A stretch of DNA of 64,000 nt from Thiohalospira halophila DSM 15071 (GTDB taxonomy: Bacteria; Pseudomonadota; Gammaproteobacteria; Thiohalospirales; Thiohalospiraceae), in contig NZ_FOMJ01000001.1 of NCBI RefSeq assembly GCF_900112605.1, positions 86,577 to 150,576 on the forward strand, read 5' to 3'. Below are positions 3,088 to 20,261 of the stretch, in pieces. Position numbers and translations under genes: made by a program. The notes beneath the pieces were generated by a model, which was given only the letters and a program-made list of their open reading frames with translations, was not told where the DNA came from and ran no database searches. Numbering within the stretch: position 1 is the stretch's first letter; the number at the start of each line of letters is the position of its first letter.

Positions 3088-3095
3088 GCCGGGGA

Positions 3096-3192
3096 GGGGA
3101 GGGCGGTTGCCGCGGTTCGCCGCGGCGGCCTCCCTACTGCGTCTGCCCACGACGACGGGCGCAGCAGGAAGGCGGCCCGACCTCGGTCGGGC
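3096..3192 (+). promoter_or_regulatory. Hairpin-rich untranslated region
   Basis: Three strong hairpins stand in a row between the gene ending at 3087 and the RNA motif at 3196: GCCGCGG-TTCG-CCGCGGC with an outer GGGAGG/CCTCCC stem; CTGCG..GCCC/GGGC-GCAG; and GCCCGACC-TC-GGTCGGGC (to 3192). None has a following U tract, so they look like structured mRNA leader rather than simple terminators. Confidence 0.5.
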
Positions 3193-3195
3193 AAC

Positions 3196-3254
3196 CGGGC
3201 AACGATGAGACTCTGCCGCGCCTGCGAGTAGAGCCAGCCTTCGGGCTGAGGCGC
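3196..3254 (+). ncRNA. Candidate structured RNA element, copy 1 (pseudoknot motif)
   Basis: 59 nt, 47 of them identical to 12842-12900. Stem P1 pairs TCTGC (3212-3216) with GTAGA (3228-3232). Stem P2 is CAGCC-TTCG-GGCTG (3235-3248). GCGCC in the P1 loop (3218-3222) can pair with GGCGC at the end (3250-3254), giving a pseudoknot. Differences between the copies fall largely in paired positions and keep pairing. It sits upstream of leader L4. Confidence 0.55.
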
Positions 3255-3264
3255 ACATAATCCA

Positions 3265-3330
3265 CCCACCACGGGGATGACCAATCCCCGGGTGGGGGCT
3301 GGTGCATCCCCTTCACGAAGGAGGTGCACC
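3265..3330 (+). promoter_or_regulatory. Leader hairpin L4 with sequestered RBS
   Basis: CCCACC-(A)-CGGGGAT (3265-3278) pairs with ATCCCCG-GGTGGG (3284-3296), one bulged A. Then TGGTGCA-TCC (from 3300) faces GGA-GG-TGCACCA (3320-3331), covering the Shine-Dalgarno GGAGG and the start codon. Confidence 0.75.
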
Positions 3331-3675
3331 ATGCTGGCACTGGGCAGCGTCATTTACTGCCGCTTCCCCTTCGATGAAGGGGGAAGCAAGAACCGGTACG
3401 GCCTCGTCATCGAGGTTGGGCCGGAGGAGCGGGTTGGCCGGTCGCGCTACGTGCGGGTGGCCTACGCCAGCTCCAAGGAGGTAACCCGTGGCGGTTGCCT
3501 CAAGGGTGAGTTTGTCCTGGACCAGCCCGGCGAGCTTCGCAAGGCCGGCCTCGACCGTCCCACCCGTTTCGATCTCGGACGTGTCCGCACCTTGTCCTAC
3601 GATCAGGTGCTGGAAGTGACCGGGGAAATCAACCTTCGCCATCCGGAGATCATCCGGGCGGCGAAAAGCCTGTAG
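3331..3675 (+). CDS. PemK/MazF-like protein (114 aa)
   Basis: The N terminus GSVIYCRFPFDEGG-SKNRYGLVIEV follows the beta-barrel opening of PemK/MazF-type toxins and their relatives (G-x-V-x-x-x-x-FPF...K-x-R-x-x-LV). Length suits the family. Classical members are mRNA interferases paired with a small antitoxin usually encoded upstream. Here no antitoxin precedes it; two small acidic paralogues follow (3687, 3907). The residues usually needed for RNase activity cannot be assigned by eye, so it may be a non-toxic family member. Start ATG 3331 has GGAGG at 7 nt. Confidence 0.55.
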   Translation: MLALGSVIYCRFPFDEGGSKNRYGLVIEVGPEERVGRSRYVRVAYASSKEVTRGGCLKGEFVLDQPGELRKAGLDRPTRFDLGRVRTLSYDQVLEVTGEINLRHPEIIRAAKSL

Positions 3676-3686
3676 GAGGTGTCGCG

Positions 3687-3872
3687 ATGGATGCTGTATG
3701 GGCAGAGAAACGGTCGCGGATGCTCAAGGCGATAGCCTCTGAGATGAACGTGACCGAGGAGAAGGCGGATTACATGGCCGTGAGCCGCATGCACCGGGAC
3801 CTGTTCCCGGGAGATGACGGCGATCATGGCGGTACCCAGCCTCACGAGATCCTTGACGAGGATCTCGAATAG
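3687..3872 (+). CDS. Small hypothetical protein, paralogue 1 (61 aa)
   Basis: ATG 3687 lies 8 nt after TAGGAGG, which overlaps the stop of the previous gene. The helical, acidic protein contains KADYMAVSRMHRDLF, matched by AEYMAVSRLHSDLF in the next gene, so the two are paralogues joined in one transcript with the MazF-like gene. No known domain recognised. The conserved motif could be a binding peptide; an antitoxin role is possible only by position. Confidence 0.65.
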   Translation: MDAVWAEKRSRMLKAIASEMNVTEEKADYMAVSRMHRDLFPGDDGDHGGTQPHEILDEDLE

Positions 3873-3906: not shown

Positions 3907-4098
3907 ATGCAGACAGAGCGCGAAGAAGCAAAAAAGGCGATGGATCGAGTCTATCAGTGCCAGAGCTTCGCTGAGGCGAAGGCGCAGATGCTTGAGAACA
4001 TCGCCTCACACCTGAAGCGGAGTACCGACGAGGCCGAGTACATGGCGGTGAGCCGCCTGCACTCGGATCTGTTCGTGCACCCGTTCCAGGACAACTAA
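3907..4098 (+). CDS. Small hypothetical protein, paralogue 2 (63 aa)
   Basis: A charged, probably all-helical protein with the AEYMAVSRLHSDLF motif at residues about 43-56, preceded by a Lys/Glu-rich helix (QMLENIASHLKRSTDE) that parallels RMLKAIASEMNVTEE of paralogue 1. CGGAGG precedes ATG 3907. The pair suggests tandem duplication with divergence. Function unknown. Confidence 0.65.
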   Translation: MQTEREEAKKAMDRVYQCQSFAEAKAQMLENIASHLKRSTDEAEYMAVSRLHSDLFVHPFQDN

Positions 4099-4173: not shown

Positions 4174-4321
4174 CCCCACCGGGGGCGCATCACGCCCCGG
4201 TGGGGGTGGTGTGCCCCTGGTGGATACCAACCACGCCCTGGCCGGGGCCTCCCAGAGCATCCCCGGGCGGGGTGCTGCGGGAGGTCCCGGTCGGGACGTT
4301 TTCCAGCGCAGGAGGTACACC
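4174..4321 (+). promoter_or_regulatory. Leader hairpin L5 of nrdJ
   Basis: CCCCACCGGGGGCG (4174-4187) pairs with CGCCCCGGTGGGG (4193-4205), one bulged G. GGTGTGCCCCTG follows at once and is largely complementary to CAGGAGGTACACC, the ribosome-binding region just before ATG 4322, but about 90 nt separate them. No conserved cobalamin-riboswitch sequence is visible although the enzyme should need adenosylcobalamin. Confidence 0.65.
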
Positions 4322-7300
4322 ATGCACATGCAGGATGTTTCCAACGAAATCTTCGCGGCGAAGTACGCGAAGGAAGGTGAGACTCGTAGCCAGGTCTTCA
4401 GCCGGGTCGTCCAGGGTCTGGCTCGGACCCCGGAGGAGGCCGCCCACTTCCAGTACGCACTGGAGAGCGGCGGGATCCTTGCCGGTCGCGTGATGAGCGC
4501 GGCCGGGTCTCAGCTGGAGACCACCCTCATCAACTGCTTCGTGCAGCCGGTGGGGGATTCGGTCACCGACATGGTGGATAGCAAGGCGTCCATCTACCAG
4601 GCCGTGGCCGAGGCCGCCGAGACCATGCGTCGTGGCGGTGGGGTCGGCTACGACTTCTCGAAGATCCGGCCGGCCGGGGCCCGGGTGCGGCGCACCCAGT
4701 CCCGCGCCAGCGGCCCGCTGTCCTACATGCGGGTCTTCGACCGGTCGTGCGAGACCGTGGAGTCGGCGGGAGCCCGGCGGGGTGCCCAGATGGGTGTCCT
4801 GCGAGTGGACCACCCCGACATCTTCGACTTCGTGGACGCGAAGAAGAACGGCGACTTCACCAACTTCAACCTCTCGGTGGGCGTCACGGACGCCTTCATG
4901 GAGGCCCTGGAGTGGGGAGAGCGGTTCGAGCTCGTCCACGACGCCGAGCCCTTCCCGGGCGACTTCCCCGAGGCGTACCAGCGGGACGATGGGCTGTGGG
5001 TCTACCGCACCATCGACCCGCAGGAGCTCTGGGATCGGATCATGGAGAACACCTACAACGGCGCCGAGCCGGGGGTGCTCTTCATCGACCGGATGAACGA
5101 GGAGAACAACCTCCACTACGTGGAGCGAATCGAGGCCACCAATCCGTTGCAACGCGGCCCGCCCTGGTAACAGGGCGCGGACACACCGGCTCTGATCGAC
5201 GTGGAAGCCCCGGCGGGGGCGACACGGGGCAAGCAGGCGTCCCTCGCGGACGCTGGGCAGCCTGAACGACCAAGTGAGCCGGCCCCGGGACTCCCCGGGT
5301 GATGCGATGGTCTGAGCTCCCCCATGACGCGCCCGGCCTGGCCGGGAAGAAAGGGGAGAGGGTCGCGGAGACGCGGCCCCGCCAGGGGAAGGCCCTGGTC
5401 ACAAGCCGCCAATGAGCGGTGAAGCAACAGCCTGGTGGTGAGCAGCCGCTCCCGGACTACGGGTGCTGCTGCCTGGGCTCGATTAACCTCGCTCGATTCA
5501 TCCGGGAACCCTTCCAGGGAGGGGATGCGTCGGTGGATTACGACGGTCTGAAGAAGGTCGTCCCCACCATGGTGCGGATGCTCGACCGGGTCTTGGACAC
5601 CACCTACTGGCCGCTGGAGCAGCAGCGGCAGGAGGCGATGAACAAGCGCCGGATCGGGCTCGGCATCACGGGCCTGGGCGATGCCCTGGCCATGCTGGGG
5701 GTGCGGTACGACTCCGATGACGGCCGTGCGCTGGCCGGCTCCATCCAGCGGTACATCACGGTGGAAGCCTACAAGGCGTCCGTCGAGATGGCCCGGGAGT
5801 ACGGGGCGTTCCCGCTGTTCTCGCAGGAGTACCTGAAGTCGCCGTTCATCCAGCGGCTGCCGAAGGAGGTCCGGGAGGGGATCGCCGAGCACGGGATCCG
5901 CAACTCGCACCTCATCTCCATCGCGCCCACGGGCACGATCTCGCTGGCCTTCGGGGACAACGTCTCCAACGGCATCGAGCCGGCCTTCGCCTGGCACTAC
6001 AACCGCAAGGTGCGCCAGGACGGCGGGTCGTGGGTGGACAACCGGGTCGAGGACTACGCCTTCCGGCTCTACCGGGAGATGTTCGGCGAGCCCGAGCGCC
6101 TGCCGGCGTCCTTCGTCTCCGCCCTGGAGATCAGTGCGGAGGACCACAAGGCCATGGTGGAAGCCGTGGCCCCGTGGGTGGACTCGTCGATCTCGAAGAC
6201 GGTGAACGTGCCGGAAGACTATCCCTACGAGGACTTCAAGGACCTGTACGTCTCGGCGTACCGGGCCGGCCTCAAGGGGATCACCACCTTCCGGCCCAAC
6301 GCCGTCACGGGATCGGTGCTGTCCACCTCGGACAGTGGGAGTGCGGAGACCAGCCCGGAGGACCTGGACCAGTCGAACCCGGATCGCCGGGTGCAGCTGG
6401 ATCGGGTGCCGGAGCCGGCCCTGGCTTCCCTGCGGTGGCCCTCGCGGCCGGAAACGCCGGCGGGCAACCCGTCGCAGACCTACCTGGTCGATGACGGGGA
6501 AGCCGGGGTGAAGTTCGCGGCCGTGGTCGGCCACATCAAGAACGGGCGCAATCATCCGTTCGAGGTGTGGACCCTCGGCAACGAGCAGCCCCGGGTGCTC
6601 TCGGCGGTGGCCAAGCTGCTGTCCATGGACATGCGGTCCTCGGACAACGCCTGGCTGGCGTACAAGCTCGACGCCCTGGAGCGGGTTAATGGGCAGCCGA
6701 TGCGGCTGGCCATGCCCCCGGAAGGGGAGCGGGTGCCGGTACGCAGTCCGGTGGCGGCGCTGGCCCGGCTCGTTCGCTATCGCTGCGAGGAGCTGGATGC
6801 CATGGCCACCGACGACCCCACGCCGGTGATGGACGCCCTGATGTCCCTGAAGGAGCCCAAAGCGGGTCCGGACGGGACGATGAGCTGGACCGTGGACGTG
6901 ATGAACCCCGCGACCGGGGATGACTTCATCGTGGTCCTGAAGGAGCTGACGATGCCCGATGGGCAGCGTCGGCCCTACTCGGTCTGGGTCAGCGGGGAGT
7001 ACCCGGCGGCCCTGGATGGCCTCTGCAAGGTCCTCTCCCTCGACATGCGGGTCATCGACCTCGCGTGGGTCGGGGAGAAGCTGCGGCAGCTGCGCGACTA
7101 CCCGGAGCACCAGGGCGATTTCCTGGCGCGGATCCCCGGGAAGGAGAAGCAGCGGTCGTATCCCTCGACGGTGGCCTACATGGCCGAGCTGATCCTGCAT
7201 CGGTTCGTCATGCTGGGCCTGCTCGACGAGGACGCCCGGCCGGTTGCCCCGATGGGGGTGGTCGAGTCGGTGTCCGAATCGGACGGCGAGGGCGATCAGG

Positions 7301-7462: not shown

Positions 7463-7577
7463 GGGTGGGAGTTCCTTCGGGACCCCTGCCTCGTGGAGAT
7501 CCCTGGAAGGGGTATTCAGGAGGGAGGAGTCTTTCGTTTCCCAAGGCATGTCAAGCAATAATCACCGTTGCGATGGA

Positions 7578-7970
7578 TTATGGGAGTTGCAGTTCATCAT
7601 CCGCCCGGACCGTTCGGGCGAGAAGCCCTAGCTCATCCGCCAAGGCAATCTCCCCTTCCTCCAGCCCAACTGGAACCTCCTTTTTCCCGGCCTGGAGTAG
7701 CCATCTTGTTCGGTGGCGTCCATTAGTAAAAGAAATAGCATATCCGTGTGTATCCAGTTCGATGTTTAAATGCGGAACATAGAAGGCGACCCTTTCTTTT
7801 TTTGGACGGCTCCGCCGAAACCAAACGCTTTTAGGCTCGCCTTGCCATTGGCGAATGTACAACGCATCCTTCCGCCATAACTGCTCCAGTTTGGCAGAAT
7901 AAACAAAGTATGGGATTAAATAATCTCGGGTTGCTTCTGCTTCTATCTTCATCGGACTCTGCATCTCCAT
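7578..7970 (-). CDS. Hypothetical protein (130 aa)
   Basis: Last gene of an AT-richer minus-strand run. The sequence is soluble, aromatic-rich and basic (SVWFRRSRPKKERVAFY, HRTRWLLQAGKKEV) with several predicted beta strands. No domain recognised. The start is uncertain because three in-frame ATG codons lie in the first seven codons. Its base composition differs clearly from the element core genes, suggesting separate acquisition. Confidence 0.5.
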   Translation of the reverse strand: MEMQSPMKIEAEATRDYLIPYFVYSAKLEQLWRKDALYIRQWQGEPKSVWFRRSRPKKERVAFYVPHLNIELDTHGYAISFTNGRHRTRWLLQAGKKEVPVGLEEGEIALADELGLLARTVRADDELQLP

Positions 7971-8001
7971 ACAACGAGCATGCTAGGCACTCTGGTTAGG
8001 T

Positions 8002-8634
8002 TTATATGCTATCCTCATTGGGTATCTGGAGAATAAAATTGTCGACGAGCTGGGGAAGTATGGTCTCTCTATATTCCGCGACCAGTCGCTCATAATTCTT
8101 GGCGATATCTTTTCTGGTCGTCGCTGAGCCCTCAATAGTTATCTCTCTTTCGGCTGGATAGCTTATGACCTCTTCCCCGTTCTCCATAAGCGACGCGGTG
8201 AGTGCAATGTTCATAACGAAAGTTCTTTCGCGGGCAGCCATAAACAAACCAACAAAGGGAAGGTTTTCAGCTTTGCTCTTTTTCCAGAATGCCTCGGCTC
8301 GCCGGAGTGTGATGATTATGGATTGGTCTGCGTTTTGGTTTATCGTTACCGTTTGTGCAAAAAGGAGCTCAAGATCAGATTCGACTGTATCACTTAGAGG
8401 TCTTTCTGGGTTGATCGGTATTTGCGTCGGGCCAAGGACGCCGTTGTCTCCGTCAGGAGGTGGCGCCCGGTTTATGATTGTGTGAGAAGTTATTTGGGGA
8501 GGTTGCTTTGTAACGGATGCAGTGGGTTTATATTCCGATCCCGAAATATCTACTTTAAGGGGCGGGGCGCAGCCAAACAATACAAGGGTAGCAACCCCAA
8601 CAAGCAGGCCTTTCGCGTAACCAGCATATAACAT
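8002..8634 (-). CDS. Predicted lipoprotein (210 aa)
   Basis: The N terminus has a short basic start, a hydrophobic stretch (GLLVGVATLVLFGC) and a lipobox Cys at residue 22, so it should be lipidated and exported. A Pro-rich linker follows, then a mixed domain of about 130 aa (SDLELLFAQTVTINQNADQSIIITL...). GAGGT precedes the ATG. It probably shares a transcript with the genes on either side. No family recognised. In a Gram-negative host it would sit on the inner or outer membrane facing the periplasm. Confidence 0.65.
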   Translation of the reverse strand: MLYAGYAKGLLVGVATLVLFGCAPPLKVDISGSEYKPTASVTKQPPQITSHTIINRAPPPDGDNGVLGPTQIPINPERPLSDTVESDLELLFAQTVTINQNADQSIIITLRRAEAFWKKSKAENLPFVGLFMAARERTFVMNIALTASLMENGEEVISYPAEREITIEGSATTRKDIAKNYERLVAEYRETILPQLVDNFILQIPNEDSI

Positions 8635-8653
8635 GTGTGACCTCGGATATTTC

Positions 8654-9166
8654 CTATCTTCCTTTCACGGTTACCTTCATTTCGACTCTTGAATTGAATG
8701 GCTCGTGCTCAGGGTTAAGTGAGTCTATGGTAACTGTCAGTTCGTCGTTGCAAAGCTTGCTAAGCTCTTCAGAGAAGGCAGTTTCGATGTCGGTGAGCGG
8801 AATTGATTTGATTGATTCATATGGCTTTGTCGTTCTGAGATCGAAAGAAAAGAAGTCGTCATCGAAATTTGGCGAGTTGTTTTTCCGCGTCTCGCCCTCG
8901 GCTTTTCTTGCCTCTTCCTCTTTTGTCTTTTGTTCGTCAAGCTCTTTTTTTGTTTTCTCGATGAGTTCGCAATTTCTTTCAGAGAACTCCTTCACCAAGT
9001 CTTGATCTGCATAATGAGTGAGTGTGGATAAGATAGACTCAACGCTAGGGTATAATCGTTTTTGGACCTTTAACATTGCCGGCGTTACCGGCAGGCGGTC
9101 ATCTTTCGATAGCTCTCTCAGAAGGTTGATTGCTTCGTCTTGTAGAGGATGAATGTCCTTGTTCAT
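8654..9166 (-). CDS. Hypothetical helical protein (170 aa)
   Basis: An acidic, Lys/Glu-rich protein with a long coiled-coil-like centre (residues about 60-100, ELIEKTKKELDEQKTKEEE). The N terminus HPLQDEAINLLRELSKDD looks like a small helical module. No membrane segment or signal peptide. It lies 19 nt upstream of the lipoprotein gene and is likely co-transcribed. The IS30 element lies just upstream and may have separated it from a promoter. Confidence 0.5.
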   Translation of the reverse strand: MNKDIHPLQDEAINLLRELSKDDRLPVTPAMLKVQKRLYPSVESILSTLTHYADQDLVKEFSERNCELIEKTKKELDEQKTKEEEARKAEGETRKNNSPNFDDDFFSFDLRTTKPYESIKSIPLTDIETAFSEELSKLCNDELTVTIDSLNPEHEPFNSRVEMKVTVKGR

Positions 9167-9228
9167 TTTTGACCTTATTTTTGACTGTCAGGAGCGATAA
9201 AAAGAGTATGGCTGCAAGGAGGGCTGGT

Positions 9229-10305
9229 CTCAAGAATCAAGTGCAACAGTTTTCGAGAACTGAGCCAGCTCCTCTTCCCAGGCCTCTTGGGGGGTCTGGA
9301 AGTCCAGCGCCTTGCGGGGTCGCTGGTTGAGGAGTCGTGCGATGTCATTGAGTTCGGTCTGGCTGGCTTCGCCGATATCGGTGCCCTTGGGCAGGAACTC
9401 GCGTAGCAGGCCGTTGGTGTTCTCGTTGCTGCCGTGCTGCCAAGGGGCATACGGGTCCGCGAACCAGATATCGAGCTTCAGGCGGCGCGCCAGCTCCGCA
9501 TGCCGAGCCATCTCGCTGCCCCGGTCATAGGTCAGGCTCTGGCGCATCTGGGCCGGCACGTGTTTCATCTGGCGGGTGAAGCCCTCCAGGGCCGCCTCCG
9601 CCGAGCTGTCGCGCATCCGGCTGAGGACGACATAGCGAGTCTTGCGCTCGACGATGGTGCCCACGGCCGAGCGATTGCCGGCGCCCTTGATGAGGTCCCC
9701 CTCCCAGTGGCCGGGCAACAGGCGCGAGTCGATGTCCTCGGGCCGGTAGGCGATGCTCAGCTCCTCCGGCGCGATGGAGCCGCCCTTGGTGGCGCTGCGG
9801 CGCCGCCGCCCGCGGGTGGGCTTCTCCTGGCGCAGGGCCTCGGTCAGCGCCTTACGCAGCTCCCCCTTAGGGTGGGCATAGATGGCGGCATAGATGGTCT
9901 CGTGGCTCACGTGGCGACTCGGTTGCTCGGGATACCGTCGCCGCAGTCTGCCGGCTATCTGCTCCGGAGACCAATGGAACAAGCAGAGACGGTCCTGAAC
10001 CCACTGGTGGAGCCAGGTGCCCGGCACCAGCTTGCGAGGCCGGCCAGTGCGACGACGCCCATGCCGGTAGGCCTCCGCAGCCCGGGTGGCACAATAGGAG
10101 CCGACCTCTTTCTGACCCCGCGCCAGCTCACGGCTCACCGTCGAGACATGGCGGCCGAGACTTCGGGCAATGGAGCGGGCGCTATGGCCTTCACCGGCCT
10201 GGATCATGATAGCGGCGCGTTCCTGATCACTGAGGTGCTGGTAGCTTCGTTCCATCGCAACATCCTACACGCTGGGTGGGGCCGGTGTTGCACTTGAAGA
10301 TTGAG
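9229..10305 (-). mobile_element. IS30-family insertion sequence (about 1.08 kb)
   Basis: Bounded by imperfect 20-bp inverted repeats, CTCAAnnnTCAAGTGCAACA, at 9229-9248 and (as reverse complement) 10286-10305, differing only at the three central positions. Contains one full-length transposase gene on the minus strand whose stop codon lies inside the left repeat. Inserted in the AT-rich minus-strand gene run. I could not define a convincing target duplication. Confidence 0.85.
9230..10255 (-). CDS. IS30-family transposase (341 aa)
   Basis: Catalyses IS transposition. Residues 1-50 hold a helix-turn-helix (LSDQERAAIMIQAGEG...ARSLGRHVSTVSRELAR) typical of IS30, then a second DNA-binding region. 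The DDE integrase core starts near ATRYVVLSRM-type strands with D in YDRGSEMARH and E in NTNGLLREFLP, with the family's DPYAPWQHGSNE signature. Length matches intact IS30 transposases and the frame is uninterrupted, so the copy may be active. The gene has higher GC than its AT-rich surroundings, consistent with recent arrival. Confidence 0.95.
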   Translation of the reverse strand: MERSYQHLSDQERAAIMIQAGEGHSARSIARSLGRHVSTVSRELARGQKEVGSYCATRAAEAYRHGRRRTGRPRKLVPGTWLHQWVQDRLCLFHWSPEQIAGRLRRRYPEQPSRHVSHETIYAAIYAHPKGELRKALTEALRQEKPTRGRRRRSATKGGSIAPEELSIAYRPEDIDSRLLPGHWEGDLIKGAGNRSAVGTIVERKTRYVVLSRMRDSSAEAALEGFTRQMKHVPAQMRQSLTYDRGSEMARHAELARRLKLDIWFADPYAPWQHGSNENTNGLLREFLPKGTDIGEASQTELNDIARLLNQRPRKALDFQTPQEAWEEELAQFSKTVALDS

Positions 10306-10481
10306 TCTAAGCTCCCGTGCCTAGGGTAGCGCCGGCATCATCAATCTCTGATAAAGTATTTGATGGCCCCTTCAAATCCGATGAGTCACCTTCTTATTTC
10401 GGCAGTTCTCTAGGCCGGGAAAGTTCAACTGCATCAGCTCGCTCGTTCGAACGATATCACGAGAAGAGGCCGGTTTCGGGT

Positions 10482-10892
10482 TCAGTTATTCCCAGATGGT
10501 GCATAGTTACTGACCTTTTCGGGAGGAAATCGGGAGCAAAAATACCGTTTTAGTTGGTCGCTCGTGAAGACTTCTTTTACGATTGACCTGTGGGTTTTCC
10601 ACCGATTCAGAACCGGAAAGCCTTCCTTTACCGTGACTCTCACCCACTCCGTCTCCGATAGTAGTGAGTCCTCCTCGGTACCTTTTACGTCAACGACCTC
10701 AAATATGGGGTCGTATCCCTCAGACAGTAAAAGCGTGAGATAAACATTCAAATCGAAAGTTTTTGTCTTGGGCAAGGGCTTTCTTGCTAGCCGCAAGTGC
10801 ATGTCTTTTCTTTGTTCGAAATCCCTTGATTGGCCAACATAAAATGGAACGCCATCTCTGGGATCTTGTAGGCGGTAAATGGTGTATTCCAT
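10482..10892 (-). CDS. GIY-YIG nuclease-domain protein (136 aa)
   Basis: The N terminus carries the GIY-YIG pattern: YTIYRLQDPRDGVPFYVGQS, then the conserved Arg (FEQRKDMHLR) and further on a Glu (SLLSETEWVRV). The domain fills nearly the whole protein, so it is a stand-alone single-domain nuclease, as seen in some mobile-element and homing-type proteins. No second DNA-binding domain is visible. It lies downstream of the channel gene in the same orientation. Possible roles are DNA repair, anti-phage defence or mobility; context does not decide. Confidence 0.75.
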   Translation of the reverse strand: MEYTIYRLQDPRDGVPFYVGQSRDFEQRKDMHLRLARKPLPKTKTFDLNVYLTLLLSEGYDPIFEVVDVKGTEEDSLLSETEWVRVTVKEGFPVLNRWKTHRSIVKEVFTSDQLKRYFCSRFPPEKVSNYAPSGNN

Positions 10893-10924
10893 GCGCGTCC
10901 TCGATGCCTTAAGAGTTATCTTTC

Positions 10925-11674
10925 CTAATCATTGCTATTTCGGTGTTCGTTAGAGGGAGACGAACCACGACCGGCATATATGGCGAAGCTTACTACTATC
11001 AGAGAAAATCCTGTTAAAACCTCATGTATTGTTAGCATCTGGGGAATCCAGTGAGAGGGTGAGAAATCTCCATAACCTGTTGTGGTTATGGTCGCACCGC
11101 TGAAATAAATGGCGTCAAGGATCGTATTGAATGAATCATCGCCAAACCACTCACGAGGTAGGATGAAGTAAATTAGGGCGTAATTTAGCATTAGCTCGAT
11201 ATAACTCAGCAAGGAGAGGCTTATTCTTTTTCGGTAGGTGAGATTGGTCTTGTGGGTGACGCCACCGTCTTCTGGTGAAGTTGTCTTCTCTAGAGCATCC
11301 AAAATAAACGCGAATAGTATTTCGTTGCACCGACTAAATGGTACCGCAAAGGCAAACAGATAAAATGCTACGGTGAGGCATATTGGAAACGTTTCGGCTG
11401 GATTGTTTTCAAGTAAGTATCCTAGTGAGGCGGTAAAGAATATCGCGCAAGCCAAGTAGAAATAGTTTCTTGCGATAATTCCCTTTGTTCTTGCGCCTCT
11501 GGAATCTTTCTTTTTTTCGTTCTCGGCAAGCCACCATGTAGGAGAAAGCAGACGAATGCTTAAGGCGACTACGAAATTAAAGGCGGGAGAGAGGTACTGG
11601 CTTGATCGATCGAAGATCAGTTGGTGGCCTGAATCCTCTTTTTTGGTGGCGGAATTTTCGGGTTCCAATGTCAC
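10925..11674 (-). CDS. Potassium-channel-like membrane protein (249 aa)
   Basis: Contains the K+ selectivity filter TITTTGYGDFSP in a pore loop (about residues 206-217), flanked by a preceding helix (LSYIELMLNYALIYFIL) and a following one (GFSLIVVSFAIYA). Three further hydrophobic segments occur earlier (LACAIFFTASLGYLL, ICLTVAFYLFAFAV), so it is a multi-pass member of the two-pore-helix ion channel superfamily. The C terminus is short, without a RCK or cyclic-nucleotide domain. The listed start is GTG 11674; a TTG six bases downstream has better spacing to GGGAGG. AT-rich codon use unlike the element core. Confidence 0.8.
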   Translation of the reverse strand: MTLEPENSATKKEDSGHQLIFDRSSQYLSPAFNFVVALSIRLLSPTWWLAENEKKKDSRGARTKGIIARNYFYLACAIFFTASLGYLLENNPAETFPICLTVAFYLFAFAVPFSRCNEILFAFILDALEKTTSPEDGGVTHKTNLTYRKRISLSLLSYIELMLNYALIYFILPREWFGDDSFNTILDAIYFSGATITTTGYGDFSPSHWIPQMLTIHEVLTGFSLIVVSFAIYAGRGSSPSNEHRNSND

Positions 11675-11884
11675 CTCCCAAGTTGGTGTATAGTATAAAA
11701 TCTTTGCAGGACGGAAGTTTTGGGCTCTGTTGGTTGTGGCTTAGGCAGTAAACTCCGGCCCCCTAAGTCGGATTGCAACGTTGGGTGAATATGCTTGGGA
11801 GTTTTGGTGCGGTGAGCCACTTTATGGTTGTCTAGATTATGTTGCTTTCGCGTTGAACTGTAAATTTTTTGGCTCGATTAATTA

Positions 11885-12175
11885 TTACCCGCTGGTCTTG
11901 AGGTCCCAAAGGGAGGCGTGTGTAGTCCTTCCCCCAATCACAACGCGTACGTTGGCCGTTTGTTCTGAAATTCCAAAGGTTTCGCTGTGTGCTTTTAAGT
12001 ATTTTCCGAACTGAGCATTCCAGGAGTCGCGGACTGGAACGCTCCTGTTAGAATGGAATCCTCCCATATATTCATTGATGATCTCGGTGGTCAGAGCTGT
12101 TTGCTTCCCCGTTTCGCGCATTCCGTCTAGTACCTGTTGGAGGCGGTCTCTGTTTATTCCGATTTCGTTGTCCAT
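11885..12175 (-). CDS. Hypothetical protein (96 aa)
   Basis: A soluble basic protein starting MDNEIGINRDRLQQVL. The middle (WNAQFGKYLKAHSETFGISEQ) and the end (VRVVIGGRTTHASLWDL) are compatible with a small DNA-binding or helical fold, but no family is recognised. It is the first gene of the AT-rich minus-strand run. The 210 bases downstream, before the channel gene, hold a possible -10 element (TATACT, complement of 11692-11697) for that gene. Confidence 0.5.
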   Translation of the reverse strand: MDNEIGINRDRLQQVLDGMRETGKQTALTTEIINEYMGGFHSNRSVPVRDSWNAQFGKYLKAHSETFGISEQTANVRVVIGGRTTHASLWDLKTSG

Positions 12176-12487
12176 AGCTTAATCCAGAGTTATTGGTTGG
12201 GCTGGTGGGGGAGGCGCCTATTTAGAGGTTTCTGAAGGTGTATTGAGTGGTGAATTTTTTCTTTTTAGAAGGCATCTTGGCTGCGATCTTTTTTGGTTGG
12301 TGCATGAAGGGCTTGGTTGAGTCTCCGGCGAGAGTCACCGGGTAATGCTAGGGGACGGTATCTGTTTAAATGGGATCTCGCAATGGCTGTTGGACTGCAT
12401 GTGATAACGGGGCTGGATGACCTATTTGCGTATGGGACGGGTTGTGAAGTCGGCTTCTTGGGGCAAAAAGCCGCGGATAGGTAAGGG
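12176..12487. other. Intergenic region, AT-richer, no gene seen
   Basis: 312 bases at the right edge of the AT-rich segment. I see no coding frame with start signals, no RNA gene and no inverted repeat worth naming. It marks the return to high GC near 12480. Confidence 0.5.
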
Positions 12488-12676
12488 TTAACGCGGTCGG
12501 GGAACCACGGCCCAATGTGCCCGGCCAGAGCGGGCCGGCGGAGGGGCGGCATCCGGACGGCCTCCATCAATGACGGTCAATCGAGAGCGCCGCGGGAGGC
12601 TGTCGTATAAGTCGTCCAGTGCTTGCTGGTTACGGCGGATCGCCTCCTGGACGATCCGGGACTCAATGGTGCGCAT
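12488..12676 (-). CDS. Small hypothetical protein (62 aa)
   Basis: ATG (complement of 12674-12676) has GGAGAG at good spacing. The first 40 residues (IESRIVQEAIRRNQQALDDLYDSL) form a plausible amphipathic helix, then a Pro/Arg-rich end. It is high-GC like the element core but faces the opposite way. No homology recognised; it may be spurious. Confidence 0.4.
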   Translation of the reverse strand: MRTIESRIVQEAIRRNQQALDDLYDSLPRRSRLTVIDGGRPDAAPPPARSGRAHWAVVPRPR

Positions 12677-12841: not shown

Positions 12842-12900
12842 CGGGCAATGTTGAGATCCTGCTGCGCCTGCGAGCAGGGCCGTCCTTCGGGACGCGGCGC
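12842..12900 (+). ncRNA. Candidate structured RNA element, copy 2 (pseudoknot motif)
   Basis: Second copy of the element at 3196. P1 pairs CCTGC (12858-12862) with GCAGG (12874-12878); P2 is CGTCC-TTCG-GGACG (12881-12894); GCGCC in the P1 loop matches GGCGC at 12896-12900. Compared with copy 1, both changed P2 base pairs and the first P1 pair are compensatory. It lies upstream of leader L6 and the CobS-like gene, the same place it has at L4. The preceding 12677-12841 stretch has a few GC hairpins and no gene. Confidence 0.55.
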
Positions 12901-12933: not shown

Positions 12934-12998
12934 CCCACCAGGGGTGTACTTCTCCCCTGGTGGGGCGTGGTGCACCCCTTTTTCATGCGAGGTGCACC
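12934..12998 (+). promoter_or_regulatory. Leader hairpin L6 with sequestered RBS
   Basis: Perfect 11-bp stem CCCACCAGGGG (12934-12944) / CCCCTGGTGGG (12954-12964). Then TGGTGCACC (12968-12976) is the reverse complement of GGTGCACCA (12991-12999), which abuts GAGG and includes the first base of ATG 12999. The clearest start-site sequestration of the set. Confidence 0.78.
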
Positions 12999-13943
12999 AT
13001 GGCTGATTTCTTCATCCGCGAGACGTTCTCGGTAGACGTTCCCGAGGGGATGACCTTCCCCGGCAACGACACCCCGGGGCTCTACACCCCGGAAGCGGAC
13101 CCTGGCTACCTGTTCCGAAAGGAGATCCTGAGCGATTTCCTGCTCGGACTCAGGAACCGCGAATCCGTGTACATCGCGGGCCCCACCGGGGCTGGCAAAT
13201 CTTCCCTCGTTACCGAAACGGCGGCGCGCCTGAACCTCCAGGTTCAGGAGATCACCGCCAACGGGCAAATGGAGTTGGCTGACCTGATTGGGCAGCACGT
13301 TCTCCAGGAGGGAAGTCTGGTCTTTCAGGATGGCCCCCTGACCCGCGCCATGCGGGAGGGGCATATCTTCCTGCTCGACGAGATCGACTACCTCGATCCC
13401 GGGGTGGTCGCCGGCCTCAATGGCCTGCTCCAGGGGCAACCCCTGGTGCTTGCCGAGAAGGGCGGCGAGGTCGTGCCTCGCCACCCGGACTTCGTCTTCG
13501 TCGCCACCGGCAATACCGCCGGTGGCGGTGATGATACCGGGCTCTACCTGGGCACCCAGCGCCAGAATCTGGCGTTCATGGATCGCTTCTTCCTCATGGA
13601 GGTGGACTACCCCTCCCGGGATGAAGAGATCCAGCTGGTCACCCAGGCCATTCCCAATCTCCCGATGACCTATGCCGAGAAGCTCGTGGACTTCGCAGTC
13701 CACGTGCGACGGCTGTTCACCGGGGAGGAGATGGACGGTCCGCAGATGGACTTCACCATCTCCTCGCGTGTCCTGGTCCGCTGGGCCAAGTACACGCTGT
13801 TCTTCAAGGGCGTAAGCAAGCAGGGCAAGAGCCCCATGCACCACGCCTTTGATAGGGCGGTCGGCTTCCGGGCCGATCCGGCCACCCGCACCGCGCTGCA
13901 TGAGCTTCTGCAGCGGGTCACCGGGGAAGGCGAGACCGTCTAA
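12999..13943 (+). CDS. CobS-like AAA+ ATPase (MoxR group)
   Basis: This 314-aa ATPase has Walker A GPTGAGKSS (about residues 66-74), Walker B IFLLDEIDYL and the sensor region ATGNTAGGGDDTGLYLGTQ, which closely follows the CobS signature ATANTxGxGDTTGLYxGT. CobS is the AAA+ subunit of aerobic cobaltochelatase, but CobS-like proteins of plasmids and phages usually travel with DUF3150 and VWA partners instead of the chelatase. Exactly that trio follows here (14030, 15150) and no CobN is present. I infer a MoxR/VWA-type remodelling complex acting on element DNA transactions. ATG 12999 is preceded by GAGGTG inside leader L6. Confidence 0.88.
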   Translation: MADFFIRETFSVDVPEGMTFPGNDTPGLYTPEADPGYLFRKEILSDFLLGLRNRESVYIAGPTGAGKSSLVTETAARLNLQVQEITANGQMELADLIGQHVLQEGSLVFQDGPLTRAMREGHIFLLDEIDYLDPGVVAGLNGLLQGQPLVLAEKGGEVVPRHPDFVFVATGNTAGGGDDTGLYLGTQRQNLAFMDRFFLMEVDYPSRDEEIQLVTQAIPNLPMTYAEKLVDFAVHVRRLFTGEEMDGPQMDFTISSRVLVRWAKYTLFFKGVSKQGKSPMHHAFDRAVGFRADPATRTALHELLQRVTGEGETV

Positions 13944-13964
13944 CGGTCCCACCATCCCTTTTCT

Positions 13965-14029
13965 CCCCACCGGGGCACACATCGCCCCGGTGGGGGAGGT
14001 GTGTGCCCCTCCACCATCTGGAGGTACCC
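13965..14029 (+). promoter_or_regulatory. Leader hairpin L7 with sequestered RBS
   Basis: Perfect 12-bp stem CCCCACCGGGGC (13965-13976) / GCCCCGGTGGGG (13984-13995). The following CCTCC-ACCATCT-GGAGG folds the Shine-Dalgarno GGAGG (14020-14024) into a small hairpin before ATG 14030. Confidence 0.75.
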
Positions 14030-15073
14030 ATGAGCCACACCTACAGCACCTACGAAGAGGTCCTGCAGGACGTTTCCTGCGTCATGCTCGATTCGGCCAT
14101 CTGGTCGGGTCGGAAGAAGCTCCGCCCGGAGGATCTGCGGATCTCCGGCGGGGAGCTGCCCCCGGAAGAGGTCGCCAGCCTCGGGTCGAAGAAGACCATC
14201 GACCCGTCGCACCTGCGCCCCTTCCACCGCCTGCGCAAGCAGGCGGAGCGCAAGCTCTCGGAGTACGGCACCCGCTTTCTCGGCGGGTACGCCGTGCCCC
14301 GGGAGAAGGTCGATCAGCTCGCCGGCGAGCTGGAAGACATCAAGCGGGAGTTCGACGTGGCCAAGCATGACCTCATCGACAACTACGCCCGCCTGGTGGA
14401 CGAGTGGGTGGCCGAGTATCCCGCATGGGAGCAGGCCATCCGTTCGGCCGTGGCGCCGGTGAGCGAGGTGGAACGCGGCATGTCGTTCCACTTCCGGGTG
14501 TTCAACATCCAGCCGGCCAGCGACGACGTGCATGCCACTGATGGCCTTCTGGAGGCCGTGCAGGGGCTCGATGGTGGGCTGCTGCAGGACGTGGCCCGCG
14601 AGGCCGATGACTGGTGGGAACGCTCTTTGAGCGGGAAGACCAGCGTCGGGCAGCGGGCTCTTCGGCCTCTGAAGGACATCCGCGAGAAGCTCTCCGGGTG
14701 GACCTTCGTGGCCGAGTGGCCGCAGCCGCTGGTGGATCAGATCGACGCGGTCCTGGAGCAGATGCCCAAGACCGGTTCCGTCGAGGATCCCCAGCTCTCC
14801 GAGCTCCACGGGCTGGCCCTGCTCTTGTCCCGGGCGGACAAGGCTAAGGCCCACGCCCAGGAGGTCTTGCGGTCCGGTCCGCAGTCCCTCGCCCCGTCCG
14901 GGTTCGACTACGGCGCCATGCTGGCGTCCGGATCGGACTTGGCCGACGAGGGTAACCCGGTGCCGGCTTCACAGCCGGACCCGGCTCCGCAGCCGGCCCC
15001 GGCCCCGGCCTCGGCGCCTGCGCCGGTGGCAGAGACCGTCGAAGAAGTCGAAGAGCTGGACTGGTTCTTCTGA
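14030..15073 (+). CDS. DUF3150-family protein (347 aa)
   Basis: The layout and the position between a CobS-like ATPase and a CobT-like VWA protein fit DUF3150, a family known from phages and conjugative elements. Residues 1-120 include SCVMLDSAIWSGRKKLRPED and FHRLRKQAERKLSEYGTRFLGGYAVP, then long helices. After residue about 290 comes a low-complexity Ala/Pro linker and the acidic tail VEEVEELDWFF. That tail resembles FDFEWFF at the end of the exonuclease at 670, suggesting both dock on one partner. No catalytic motif seen. Confidence 0.75.
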   Translation: MSHTYSTYEEVLQDVSCVMLDSAIWSGRKKLRPEDLRISGGELPPEEVASLGSKKTIDPSHLRPFHRLRKQAERKLSEYGTRFLGGYAVPREKVDQLAGELEDIKREFDVAKHDLIDNYARLVDEWVAEYPAWEQAIRSAVAPVSEVERGMSFHFRVFNIQPASDDVHATDGLLEAVQGLDGGLLQDVAREADDWWERSLSGKTSVGQRALRPLKDIREKLSGWTFVAEWPQPLVDQIDAVLEQMPKTGSVEDPQLSELHGLALLLSRADKAKAHAQEVLRSGPQSLAPSGFDYGAMLASGSDLADEGNPVPASQPDPAPQPAPAPASAPAPVAETVEEVEELDWFF

Positions 15074-15086
15074 CCCATCATCCCCG

Positions 15087-15149
15087 CCGTCCCGGGGTGT
15101 CTGCTTTACGCAGCCCCGGACGGGGGGGCTGTGTGTCTGGAGGTGCATC
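15087..15149 (+). promoter_or_regulatory. Leader hairpin L8
   Basis: CCGTCC-(C)-GGGG (15087-15097) pairs with CCCCGGACGG (15114-15123); the inner loop adds CTGC/GCAG. This variant lacks CCACC. CTGGAGG lies downstream before ATG 15150; RBS pairing is less clear than in the other leaders. Confidence 0.6.
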
Positions 15150-17027
15150 ATGCGCAGCGTCTTCGACGCCTTCCCCATTGTCGCCGCGGCGATGGGGGAA
15201 CAACGGGGTGTCCGGATCACCCAGGACCCCGGCGGGGCCTGGACGACCGGGACCACCATCAACGTCCCCCCCATCAAGGACGAGGCCGATCCCGGCCTGG
15301 TCCGGAAGGCGTGGGGTTTTCTGGACCACGAGTCCGCCCACGTTTTGTTGACCGACTTTCCGGTCTACCAGCAGTGGGCCCGTAAGGTGGGGGCCTCCCT
15401 CATCAACATCGTCGAGGACATCCGGATCGAGGCCGCCCTGATAGGGCGGTATCCGGGGGCTCGACGGAACCTGGACCACCTGTGCCAGTGCAGTGTCGAT
15501 GACGGCTCCTTCGAGGCGCCGTCGGCTGATCTGCCGGTCTCGTCCCTGGTTCTCGGGCACTGCCTCTACCGGGGGCGTTCCCGGGGGCTAGGGCAGTCCG
15601 CGCTCGATGGCTATGCCGCCGAGATCGAGCGGCTGCTCCGGCAGGCTGCCGGGGACGACCTGGTCGATAAGCTCAACGAGCAGATCGACCGGGCCCCGGC
15701 CGCGGCCACCACGGATGAAGCCGGTTGGATTGCTTTCGACATCTACCGGCTCCTCCAGGACACGGAAGAGCAGCAGGACCAGCCCTCCGGCGGGGACTCC
15801 TCGGACGCCCAGTCCGGCCAGCAGGCCGGGGAGGGTGAGCCCGGGGATGCTTCGTCCGAGTCCGACGAGGAGTCCGATTCGAGTGATGGTGCTGGCGACA
15901 GCGCCGGCGGCTCGGAAGAGGGCACCGAGGAGGATGCCCAGGAGGACACCCAAGGGGGGTCCGACGGGAGCTCGGAGGAGGGCAATGGCTCAGCGTCGGC
16001 TTCCGGCGACGAGCCCGGCCAGGAAGAGGATGCCGGCAACGGCGCCGCTTCTGGTTCGGGTGCGGACTCGCAGGATGACGACCAGGGCCAGGCCGACTCG
16101 TCGGCCGGCAGTGGTTCCGGTGGAGAGGTTTCCCTGGACGGGCTGCTGCAGGCCATCAAGGAGGCCGATCCGGACGCCGTGGACATCACCGCGGCCGTTC
16201 GGGAGGCACTCAATGCGGCAAAGGACGGGCACGACAACATGCTGCCCGAAATGGCCGAAGAAGGTCGGTATCTAGCGGTACCGGACTGGCTGAGTGCCGA
16301 GCTGAAGGCCGATGCCAAGACGGCCACTCTGGGCCTTCGCAAGCGCCTTCAGGGGCTTCTGGAGGCGCAGGCCCGGACGCGGAAGACCCATTCCCGTTCG
16401 GGGCGGCGGCTCGATGCCCGTCGTGTCCACCGGCTGAAGGTGGGTGATACCCGCCTGTTCGAGCGCAAGCGTTCCGAGCAGGGGGTCAACACCGCCATCA
16501 GCATCCTGGTGGATGCCTCGGGGTCCATGGCGGACGCGGTCGAAGGCAAGTTCCTGTCGTCCGGTGGTCCCGTGCAGCGGATCAATCTGGCCTGTCAGGG
16601 CGCCTGGTCGGTCACTGAGGCCCTCAAGGGGGCCAAGGGGGTCTCCACCGGCGTCATTGCCTTCGGCTCGCAGGCCCAGGAGCTCAAACCGCTGGGTCAG
16701 GATGGGAAGTACCGCCATGGACCGTTCGTGCTCCAGGGCGGATCGACCTGGACCGATAGCGGCGTCATGCGGGCCATGCGGCAGCTTCTCCCGGCCCGTG
16801 AGGACCGGAAGATCCTGCTCGTGCTCACGGACGGCGATCCGAATGATCCCTGGCAGGCGCGCGACGCATTCCGGCTGGCTCGCCAGTCCGGCGTCGAGAC
16901 CCTGGTTCTGGGGATCGGCGAGCTGAGGCTCTCTCTGGGGGCCGACGAAGAGGCCATCCTCGATGACATCAGCCAGCTGCCCCAGACCATGCTCCGCATG
17001 CTGGAACGCCGGCTGAAGGCCGCTTAA
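15150..17027 (+). CDS. CobT-like protein with HExxH and VWA domains
   Basis: A 625-aa protein in three parts. Residues about 1-200 hold HESAH (60-64, an HExxH zinc site) and, 25 residues on, IVEDIRIE (Glu89), as in gluzincin-type metallopeptidases. Residues about 210-350 are acidic, Ser/Gly/Glu-rich and surely disordered. The C-terminal VWA domain has a complete MIDAS: DASGS, the Thr of GGSTWTDSG and LTDGD. CobT is the VWA partner of CobS, so this should pair with the ATPase at 12999. The N-terminal zinc site suggests proteolysis rather than cobalt chelation. Tandem with DUF3150, each gene with its own leader. Confidence 0.82.
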   Translation: MRSVFDAFPIVAAAMGEQRGVRITQDPGGAWTTGTTINVPPIKDEADPGLVRKAWGFLDHESAHVLLTDFPVYQQWARKVGASLINIVEDIRIEAALIGRYPGARRNLDHLCQCSVDDGSFEAPSADLPVSSLVLGHCLYRGRSRGLGQSALDGYAAEIERLLRQAAGDDLVDKLNEQIDRAPAAATTDEAGWIAFDIYRLLQDTEEQQDQPSGGDSSDAQSGQQAGEGEPGDASSESDEESDSSDGAGDSAGGSEEGTEEDAQEDTQGGSDGSSEEGNGSASASGDEPGQEEDAGNGAASGSGADSQDDDQGQADSSAGSGSGGEVSLDGLLQAIKEADPDAVDITAAVREALNAAKDGHDNMLPEMAEEGRYLAVPDWLSAELKADAKTATLGLRKRLQGLLEAQARTRKTHSRSGRRLDARRVHRLKVGDTRLFERKRSEQGVNTAISILVDASGSMADAVEGKFLSSGGPVQRINLACQGAWSVTEALKGAKGVSTGVIAFGSQAQELKPLGQDGKYRHGPFVLQGGSTWTDSGVMRAMRQLLPAREDRKILLVLTDGDPNDPWQARDAFRLARQSGVETLVLGIGELRLSLGADEEAILDDISQLPQTMLRMLERRLKAA

Positions 17028-17039
17028 CCCAACCCACCG

Positions 17040-17105
17040 CCCCGGCGGGGATTCATTCCCCGCCGGGGGAGGGATCCCTCCGGGGCCTTAACCCTGGAGG
17101 TGACC
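17040..17105 (+). promoter_or_regulatory. Leader hairpin L9 with sequestered RBS
   Basis: 12-bp stem CCCCGGCGGGGA (17040-17051) / TCCCCGCCGGGG (17057-17068). Downstream, CCTCCGGGG (17077-17085) pairs with CCCTGGAGG (17092-17100), hiding the Shine-Dalgarno before ATG 17106. Confidence 0.7.
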
Positions 17106-17444
17106 ATGGAGCAGTTGTCGCTGTTCTACGAGGCGGCACCCATGCCGCCGATGGCTCCGGACCCTCCGGAGCTCGATCCCGTCCTCGACATCGCGTCGTG
17201 GACGGACGAAGAGGTCGAACGGTTCGCGTGGGGTCTGCTGGAGCGGACCCTGGAGCAGCTGTTCGCACCGCAAGCTGGCCCGGCCACGCGCCGGGACATC
17301 CTCGAATGGGTCCAGGAGGAGGGAAGCCATGCGCTTTCCTTCGAGGGGCTCGTGCGGGGCCTGGGGCTCGACCCCGACGCCATGCGCGAGGCCATCTTCG
17401 AGGCCATCCATCTCGTCGATGACGGATGGGCGGCCTCGGCCTGA
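17106..17444 (+). CDS. Small protein with N-terminal sliding-clamp motif (112 aa)
   Basis: Residues 3-7 are QLSLF, an exact match to the bacterial beta-clamp-binding consensus QL(S/D)LF, placed at the extreme N terminus as in Hda-type clamp binders. A Pro-rich spacer follows (MPPMAPDPPELDP), then a helical domain (residues about 30-105, WTDEEVERFAWGLLERTLEQL, RRDILEWVQEEGS) that resembles a winged-helix or small DNA-binding fold. It sits between the CobT-like and primase genes, which supports a replication role. Family not recognised. Confidence 0.72.
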   Translation: MEQLSLFYEAAPMPPMAPDPPELDPVLDIASWTDEEVERFAWGLLERTLEQLFAPQAGPATRRDILEWVQEEGSHALSFEGLVRGLGLDPDAMREAIFEAIHLVDDGWAASA

Positions 17445-17458
17445 CCCGAATCTTTCCA

Positions 17459-17590
17459 CCCCACCGGGGGGAGTACACCTCCCCCGGTGGGGGTGTGCTC
17501 CCTCCATCTACCCATGCCCGGTCGGGGCACCCGAAAGCGCCTCGACGGGGCGTTTTCGGGTGTCCCGGCTGGACGAAGGAGGAGAGCACT
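17459..17590 (+). promoter_or_regulatory. Leader L10 with a second long hairpin
   Basis: CCCCACCGGGGG-(G)-AG (17459-17473) pairs with CTCCCCCGGTGGGG (17479-17492). Uniquely, a second long hairpin follows at 17524-17566, centred on CACCCGAAA and TTTCGGGTG plus GCGCC/GGCGT. Shine-Dalgarno AAGGAGGAG lies before ATG 17591. Confidence 0.72.
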
Positions 17591-18736
17591 ATGAGCAATC
17601 GACCCCTCGACAAGAGCCAGGTCTTTGCAGCGGCTAACGGCCGCTGGGATGAGGTCTTCGCCCAGCTCGCACCCGAGCTGTCGGAGGCCATGGAGCGGGC
17701 AGGGCGGCATGTTGCCTGCCCCCACCCGGAACACGGTGGGGCAGATGACTTCCGCCTCTTCACCGACTTCAAGGACACCGGTGGCGGGATCTGCAACTGC
17801 GGCGGCGGCCGGGACGGCATTGCCGTTCTGCGCTGGCTCCACGGTTGGAGCTTCCCGGAAGCCATCGAGCAGGTGGGTCTGGCCCTGGGCCTGGAGCGGG
17901 AGCAGGGGTACGTGCGGGACGAGCGTGGCCGTTCGCGGCCGCGGTTTGCTCCGCAGGTCTCCACCCCTTCCCCTTCGTCGGTCAGCGACGAGGAGAACCT
18001 TCGCCGCCGGCGGAAGCTCAAGGAGGTCTGGCAGGGCGGGATCCCGGTGGACTCGGATGACGCGGAGCCGCTGCTTCGCTACTTCGAGCACCGTGGTCTC
18101 GACCCGCTCCAGGCCATCTTTGCGCTCGACCAGGAGGCCCGCTTCCACCCCTCGCTCCCCCTGTGGGAGAAGGGCGAGAAGCCGGGCGAGCCGCCCCAGA
18201 AGCTCGGGGACTTCCCCGCGCTCCTGACCCTGGTGCGGGATGCCGAAGGCCGTCCGGTCTCGGTGCATCGCACCTGGTTGGCCGAGGATGGCCAGGGCAA
18301 GGCGCCGGTGAGCAAACCCCGCAAGATGATGGCCTTCCCTTCCGACCGCAGTGTCGAGGGTGGCCATATTCGGCTGGGGGCCGTGCCTGAAGATGGGGTC
18401 ATCGGCGTAGCCGAGGGCCTGGAGACGGCGCTGGCTGCCATGCAGGCCACCGGCATGCCGGTCTGGCCGTGTCTGGCGGAGCGGATCCTCCGGGGCTTCG
18501 AGCCTCCGGAGGGGGTCACCGGGGTCGTGGTCTTCTGTGACCGCGACACCAGTGGCATCGGGGCTGAAGCTGGCGAAGAGCTGGTCGGAAAGCTCCGGGA
18601 AGCCGGTCTTCAGGCGCGAGCCGTGGTGCCGCCGGCACCGTCCGAAGGGGACAAGGCCGACTGGCTGGACACCCTCAACGAGTACGGCGCGGACGCCTTT
18701 CCGAAGCGTCGTGCTCAGCGTCGCAGTGCGGCGTAA
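17591..18736 (+). CDS. Zinc-finger/toprim DNA primase
   Basis: A 381-aa protein. Residues about 38-90 form a primase-type zinc site (CPHPEHGGADDFRLF... then ICNCGGGRDGIAVLRWLHG) as in P4- and plasmid-type primases. The C-terminal half holds a toprim fold, with VAEGLETALAAMQATG (the catalytic Glu) and VVVFCDRDTSGIG (D-x-D). No helicase domain is fused, unlike T7 gp4, so a separate or host helicase must be used. It synthesises RNA primers for element replication by family knowledge. Together with the clamp-motif protein and exonuclease it gives the element its own replication/recombination functions. Confidence 0.85.
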   Translation: MSNRPLDKSQVFAAANGRWDEVFAQLAPELSEAMERAGRHVACPHPEHGGADDFRLFTDFKDTGGGICNCGGGRDGIAVLRWLHGWSFPEAIEQVGLALGLEREQGYVRDERGRSRPRFAPQVSTPSPSSVSDEENLRRRRKLKEVWQGGIPVDSDDAEPLLRYFEHRGLDPLQAIFALDQEARFHPSLPLWEKGEKPGEPPQKLGDFPALLTLVRDAEGRPVSVHRTWLAEDGQGKAPVSKPRKMMAFPSDRSVEGGHIRLGAVPEDGVIGVAEGLETALAAMQATGMPVWPCLAERILRGFEPPEGVTGVVVFCDRDTSGIGAEAGEELVGKLREAGLQARAVVPPAPSEGDKADWLDTLNEYGADAFPKRRAQRRSAA

Positions 18737-18747
18737 GGAGGGTGGCC

Positions 18748-19008: not shown

Positions 19009-19015
19009 CCCACCA

Positions 19016-20247: not shown

Positions 20248-20261
20248 GAATTATCAGGAAG

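Follow-up and report, generated by a model that had tools for sequence, protein, structure and literature searches.

A repeated predicted pseudoknot RNA precedes selected two-hairpin leaders in an SXT/R391-IncC-like element of Thiohalospira halophila

Introduction

We wanted to understand what kind of element is formed by a 59-nt sequence that recurs in front of different genes of Thiohalospira halophila DSM 15071. The DNA analysed, referred to here as the window, is a stretch of 64,000 nt. About 20 kb on its left side make up the right part of a conjugative element that is SXT/R391-IncC-like (MOBH/MPF-F type), and outside this element the window carries chromosomal genes. The element encodes a MOBH relaxase (TraI_2), TraD, TraC, TraU, a GGDEF protein, SSB, a RecT-like protein, a YqaJ exonuclease, CobS, DUF3150, CobT and a primase, and its CobS is nearest to the SXT/IncC types. 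A sequence at about 20213-20248 that resembles the 3' portion of a tRNA gene (GTAGGTTCAAATCCTGCCGTCCCGACCA) may be the attachment site where the element ends on the right. The papers on SetCD and AcaCD, which are transcription activators, deal with promoters, start sites and regulons (PMC4344509, PMC4207636). In open-access papers, we found no description of pseudoknots, leaders or Shine-Dalgarno control in SXT/IncC elements, nor of the IncC/pAQU pseudoknot repeats presented below.

Three copies in one genome

Direct comparison confirmed that the copies at positions 3196-3254 and 12842-12900 have the same length and are identical at 47 of 59 positions (12 differences), as given in a first-pass annotation. 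The block conserved in both begins at GGGCAA (3197 and 12843), and the elements were delimited on the plus strand as 3197..3254, which includes a single-stranded GGGCAACGATGAGA, and 12843..12900. A third copy is located about 1.8 kb upstream of the window start (L007:18170-18228, equivalent to G000:C1:84746-84804). It was first seen when the neighbouring DNA was scanned, and is the sole other strong covariance-model match in the whole genome. All three copies are on the gene strand, end 74, 75 and 97 nt before a start codon, and occupy long intergenic regions, directly 5' of a two-hairpin leader. Other exact-core matches in the same genome were rejected, as they fell in coding-looking sequence reading like rsmE and rpsU.

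The gene following copy 1 (3331..3675, plus strand) encodes a protein of 114 aa for which no match was found in Pfam, PHROGs, NCBIfam, PADLOC or PDB, and a search for close relatives gave none. Since it matches no family in these five libraries, its initial description as MazF-like is not supported, whereas the position of both copies before a CCACC leader and the CobS-like nature of the second gene held. This second gene (12999..13943, plus strand) encodes a CobS/CbbQ-like AAA+ ATPase that shares 41-45% identity with the CobS proteins of SXT/R391, IncC and related plasmids, with no close relative in viral contigs. Copy 3 is followed by a gene for a 73-aa protein, and the three downstream genes share no pathway. 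A type III toxin-antitoxin RNA (ToxI-like), which would consist of tandem repeats beside a gene for a ToxN/MazF-fold toxin, was discarded, the copies being single and kilobases apart and the adjacent gene matching no toxin family.

Several other features were seen in this part of the window. Three tandem copies of about 102 nt, 75-77% alike, lie at 2161-2585 and contain small membrane-protein-like ORFs (MEW...WYAHRQK..). Two adjacent genes (3687-3872 and 3907-4098) encode small paralogous proteins of no known family with a common YMAVSR.H.DLF motif. At 5147-5434, a ribonucleotide reductase large-subunit gene is interrupted inside its NPCGEQPL active-site motif; the reading frame is recovered when 288 nt, preceded by a T and ending in G, are taken out. 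This would suggest a group I intron, but the insertion had no Rfam match. Finally, a lower-GC cargo segment at about 7500-12500, between the reductase gene and copy 2, contains an integrase-core (rve) transposase and an ion-channel gene on the minus strand.

Fold and covariation

The proposed fold has 16 pairs per copy, divided between S1/P1 (6 bp), the loop-tail helix S2 (5 bp), which creates the pseudoknot, and P2 (5 bp). On the plus strand, copy 1 pairs 3211-3216 with 3228-3233 (S1/P1), 3218-3222 with 3250-3254 (S2) and 3235-3239 with 3244-3248 (P2, with a UUCG loop); in copy 2 the same helices pair 12857-12862 with 12874-12879, 12864-12868 with 12896-12900, and 12881-12885 with 12890-12894, the last one also with a UUCG loop. 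Between these two copies, two-sided changes affect two pairs of P2 and one of P1, in addition to a G-T that becomes G-C, exactly as first described. Copy 3 forms all 16 proposed pairs, and over the three copies 48 of 48 cells are paired (100%). Its P1 is re-paired as CCTTCC/GGAAGG, its P2 is CGGCC/GGCCG with a CCA triloop in place of UUCG, and its loop-tail helix has changed in a compensatory way from GCGCC/GGCGC to GCGCT/AGCGC. The UUCG cap and the GCGCC/GGCGC pairing had been taken as invariant, and copy 3 contradicts this for both. The same change gives the loop-tail pseudoknot, proposed from two copies, covariation support of its own, as expected of an H-type pseudoknot whose helix is kept through compensatory change, by one event only: pair 26-54 is C-G in two copies and U-A in the third, and the other four S2 pairs are invariant.

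Altogether, two-sided changes were found in 6 of the 16 pairs over the three copies, against a mean of 2.0 in shuffles, none of 500 reaching 6. When the partner strand was slid by 1-3 columns, pairing fell to 33-46%. A covariance model that had seen only copies 1 and 2 retrieved copy 3 at E=8.4e-14, the next match being at 0.02. With a descriptor free of sequence, made of helices and spacings only, 5 matches were obtained in 248 kb on both strands, namely the three copies and two others, for a background of about 0.1 matches per strand in composition-matched shuffles. Compensatory changes thus keep the stems paired across copies, as for a structured RNA, and the further homologue that was found covaries, where homologues devoid of covariation would have spoken against the fold. 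Only one genome was found to contain the exact sequence, and the covariation therefore rests on three paralogues.

Nested minimum-energy folding gave no excess stability (z -0.2 and +0.6), which is expected if the pseudoknot matters; the support for the predicted fold is comparative and not energetic. In copy 1, a nested fold in which the S2 helix replaces P1 is nearly as good energetically, and P1 and S2 might exclude each other instead of forming together.

The strand on which the element folds bears on whether it acts as RNA at all. The copies belong to the part of the conjugative element that encodes SSB, the RecT-like protein and the exonuclease, and since regions of this kind are known to contain folded single-strand sites, a single-stranded DNA element used in transfer (a folded promoter, a priming site or an attC-like site) was considered. 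On the opposite strand, C-A mismatches would replace the G-U pairs seen in P1 of copies 1 and 2, and for this reason the sense-strand RNA is likely the folded molecule. The tight spacing to the start codons also fits a leader RNA, and we judge a DNA element very unlikely. An integron attC site was rejected by inspection, the RYYYAAC / GTTRRRY core boxes being absent from the three copies. Comparison of the three copies shows a repeated sense-strand RNA, predicted to form a pseudoknot, at a fixed place before selected leaders.

Searches for the same RNA elsewhere

With Rfam 15, no family was detected on the whole window at the gathering threshold, and relaxed thresholds gave no match on the element in any of the three copies, in agreement with the initial remark that no known riboswitch or ribozyme was recognised. 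Sequence patterns applied to IMG/VR and GTDB genome contigs returned 44 and 14 partial matches, which were judged to be due to chance: they retain 0-6 of the 6 P1 pairs, and the sole 6/6 match (L080) is without the pseudoknot. Covariance model R1 gave three weak matches in 56 relatives, judged from their alignments to be chance, and no homologue in 369 genomes of the class, 398 of the phylum and 12 of the order, nor in five further CobS-bearing regions. BLAST of the leader regions against plasmids returned chance matches only.

A new small self-cleaving ribozyme was envisaged, given that the size, the pseudoknot and the conserved unpaired bases flanking P1 recall the pistol or HDV-like size class. 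The absence of any Rfam ribozyme match even at relaxed thresholds, the restriction to one element and, on inspection, the lack of an HDV-like P3 and active-site linker and of a hammerhead core make this reading hardly credible.

Spacers and two-hairpin leaders

Copy 1 is preceded by a hairpin-rich spacer (3088..3195, plus strand) that extends from the previous stop codon, and whose last hairpin (GCCCGACctcgGTCGGGC) closes 4 nt 5' of GGGCAA. The fold z values of the spacers are -2.2, -1.1 and -5.5 for copies 1, 2 and 3, respectively, those of copies 1 and 3 being hairpin-rich. On the other side, the leader of the gene at 3331 (3262..3331, plus strand) consists of hairpin A at about 3262-3298 and hairpin B at about 3300-3331, and that of the CobS-like gene at 12999 (12934..12999, plus strand) of A at about 12934-12965 and B at about 12967-12999. 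In the leader of the gene at 3331, hairpin B is predicted to hide the Shine-Dalgarno sequence, and its 5' arm has an alternative partner in the 5' side of A.

Such two-hairpin leaders, ending at the start codon, with the Shine-Dalgarno sequence inside hairpin B and the same potential pairing between A and B, are present before nearly every gene of the element (for instance those at window positions 2665, 3331, 12999, 14031 and 17107 and at L007:18303 and 18635, among others), and leaders of the same kind were found in the related regions L066, L068, L069, L090 and L093. Only three of the leader-bearing genes of this element also carry the 59-nt element. A and B parts were swapped between leaders, lineage by lineage, in a permutation test. 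In this element, the own A5:B5 pairing reached -13.9 kcal/mol versus -10.8 kcal/mol for swapped parts, with 2 of 5000 permutations as good. The corresponding values were -12.4 versus -8.5 kcal/mol in an IncC plasmid (0/5000), -11.7 versus -7.4 in Methylomonas pFW12EY (0/5000) and -8.0 versus -6.6 in an SXT-like Vibrio alginolyticus plasmid (61/5000). From these predicted pairings, a three-segment translation switch made of A5, B5 and the Shine-Dalgarno sequence is likely to be general in these elements.

In two leaders (window 4229-4310 and L007:17757-17835), a long hairpin overlaps a terminator-like hairpin followed by a T run, an arrangement resembling an attenuator with alternative folds; the terminator-like sequence at L007:17810, inside the operon, reads GCCCCGGTGCGGGGCGTTTTT.

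A plasmid-type mRNA leader with a pseudoknot is also found in the IncI/IncB rep leaders, where the loop of a hairpin pairs with a strand further downstream and RNA structure controls the start site. These leaders are single-copy and come with an antisense RNA, whereas the 59-nt element has three copies before unrelated genes, and no antisense RNA was seen.

Counterparts in related elements

A different repeat, also of 59 nt, is present in IncC/pAQU-type plasmids and in a Salmonella genomic island belonging to this element family (L066:10804, 11848, 16683 and 20515; L090-L093). It consists of a hairpin followed by GTGCGA-TAGCTGG-TCGCC-AAAAACAAA-CAGC and precedes CobS, DUF3150 and other genes; the CobS-upstream region is matched by 869 plasmid records. 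The core is an H-type pseudoknot with strong covariation, two-sided changes affecting 4 of 9 pairs with 100% pairing in 13 distinct sequences, and no Rfam family corresponds to it. By an exact-core scan, IncC/pAQU plasmids have 5-7 copies per 40-kb stretch. These are found only in intergenic regions of at least 169 nt, at a distance of mostly 69-107 nt from the start codon, the intergenic regions of genes without the repeat being mostly around 60-100 nt, and the spacers upstream of the copies have fold z values of -4.3 to -9.4.

The IncC/pAQU repeats are thus like the 59-nt element in being multi-copy H-type pseudoknots between a hairpin-rich spacer and a two-hairpin leader, before CobS among others and at a similar distance from the start codon. 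They differ in that their hairpin is 5' of the pseudoknot, whereas that of the 59-nt element is inside the long loop, and in having an AGCUG loop, a CAGC tail and an A-rich loop 3 where the 59-nt element has GCGCY/RGCGC. When examined for the features of the IncC-type repeat (loop TAGCTGG, A-rich loop 3 and tail CAGC), the 59-nt element did not qualify; the IncC element profile had no reported match in the window, L007 or L008, and the core pattern is absent there.

Another genome (G320) contains four copies of a hairpin followed by CACGCG-AGCTGC-CGCGTG-TAATCAAGA-GCAGC, one of them before CobS. The fold fits all four copies, with one two-sided change, which alone is not significant, and here too the hairpin precedes the pseudoknot, unlike in the 59-nt element. 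As the order of helices and the loop sequences differ, we do not claim common descent with the IncC and G320 pseudoknots. Methylomonas pFW12EY (L068:15868, 18629 and 24753) and the genomes G243 (L104, about 13836-19910) and G276 (L100, 4257 and 7719, reversed strand) have their own repeated structured intergenic elements, different in sequence and fold and not shown to be pseudoknots. Comparison between lineages shows a predicted, lineage-specific counterpart RNA at the same place in other members of the element family.

This comparison also weighs on the possibility of a small-ligand riboswitch. A compact pseudoknot with invariant unpaired bases would suit such a function, as would its place in a 5' leader beside an expression platform that hides the Shine-Dalgarno sequence, and the topology resembles that of the preQ1-II type, in which the strand joining the two helices of a pseudoknot carries a small hairpin. 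The 59-nt element differs from preQ1-II by having no Rfam match, no queuosine genes downstream and other conserved bases. Moreover, the same leader occurs without the element at most genes, and no homologue was found in the contigs, genomes and regions searched. Because the downstream genes share no pathway and the RNAs at the same place in related elements are unrelated in sequence, a riboswitch is not favoured and seems to us highly improbable.

Discussion

The reading that we prefer, and which could equally well turn out right or wrong, is that of a cis-acting RNA at the heads of gene blocks, acting together with the leader switch and/or RNA polymerase through a lineage-matched factor. A compact pseudoknot, with the P1 loop paired to the tail and P2 in between, would be present in three copies inside polycistronic messages, and would mark the start of gene blocks after long, hairpin-rich intergenic gaps. 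It would lie directly 5' of the two-hairpin leader that may hide or expose the Shine-Dalgarno sequence of the next gene. An RNA that varies between lineages while keeping its position is most simply read as the recognition site of a factor that diversifies together with the element and is most likely encoded by it. By acting on the leader switch and/or RNA polymerase, this factor would reset expression where each block begins. The proposed matching of RNA and factor can be likened to that of nut sites and N proteins.

A related proposal is that of a processive antiterminator RNA, which would either modify RNA polymerase itself (as put and EAR) or recruit an element-encoded antiterminator (as nut/N), and would allow read-through of the long operon. 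Several copies per element at block heads, GC-rich hairpins before nearly every gene, the terminator-like structure within the operon at L007:17810 and a lineage-specific sequence, as with nut sites, are all consistent with it. The put RNAs of phage HK022, of about 60-70 nt with at least two helices, resemble the 59-nt element in being short structured RNAs that occur more than once per mobile element near operon starts. However, put RNAs directly follow promoters, whereas the 59-nt copies are internal: a consensus scan detected no promoter-like sequence upstream of the copies, copies 1 and 3 are reached from the previous stop codon through hairpin spacers, and copies are more numerous in the relatives. 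Nor did the consensus scan for promoters and terminators rise above chance, with 13 terminator-like sites versus 13.7 in shuffles, and the 5-7 copies per operon region of IncC exceed what put or nut would need. Antitermination is thus a possible function, on the unlikely side.

The same flanking hairpins could instead belong to a module for mRNA processing and stabilisation, in which ribonucleases would cut them and the pseudoknot would protect the new 5' end, giving blocks a separate stability. The strong tandem hairpins upstream (z down to -5.5 here and -4.3 to -9.4 in IncC) and the location of copies at internal boundaries of co-oriented gene clusters agree with this. As the conserved unpaired GGGCAAYGWTGAGA and TGCGA exceed the needs of a passive block, we regard such a module as improbable.

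On a more tentative note, which we would sooner expect to fail than to hold, SXT/IncC elements may have a previously unrecognised two-tier RNA control, with hide/expose leaders on nearly every gene and lineage-specific, multi-copy block-head RNAs, pseudoknots in at least three lineages, served by a lineage-matched reader. If true, such a system would be the RNA counterpart of nut/N specificity in lambdoid phages. Both SXT/R391 elements and IncC plasmids are major vehicles of antibiotic resistance. Should their genes be controlled by the pseudoknots and leader switches, a whole post-transcriptional layer in the control of conjugation, recombination and anti-defence functions would have been missed. 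Lineage-specific RNAs at a fixed position would also offer a clean case of co-diversification between an RNA and its reader.
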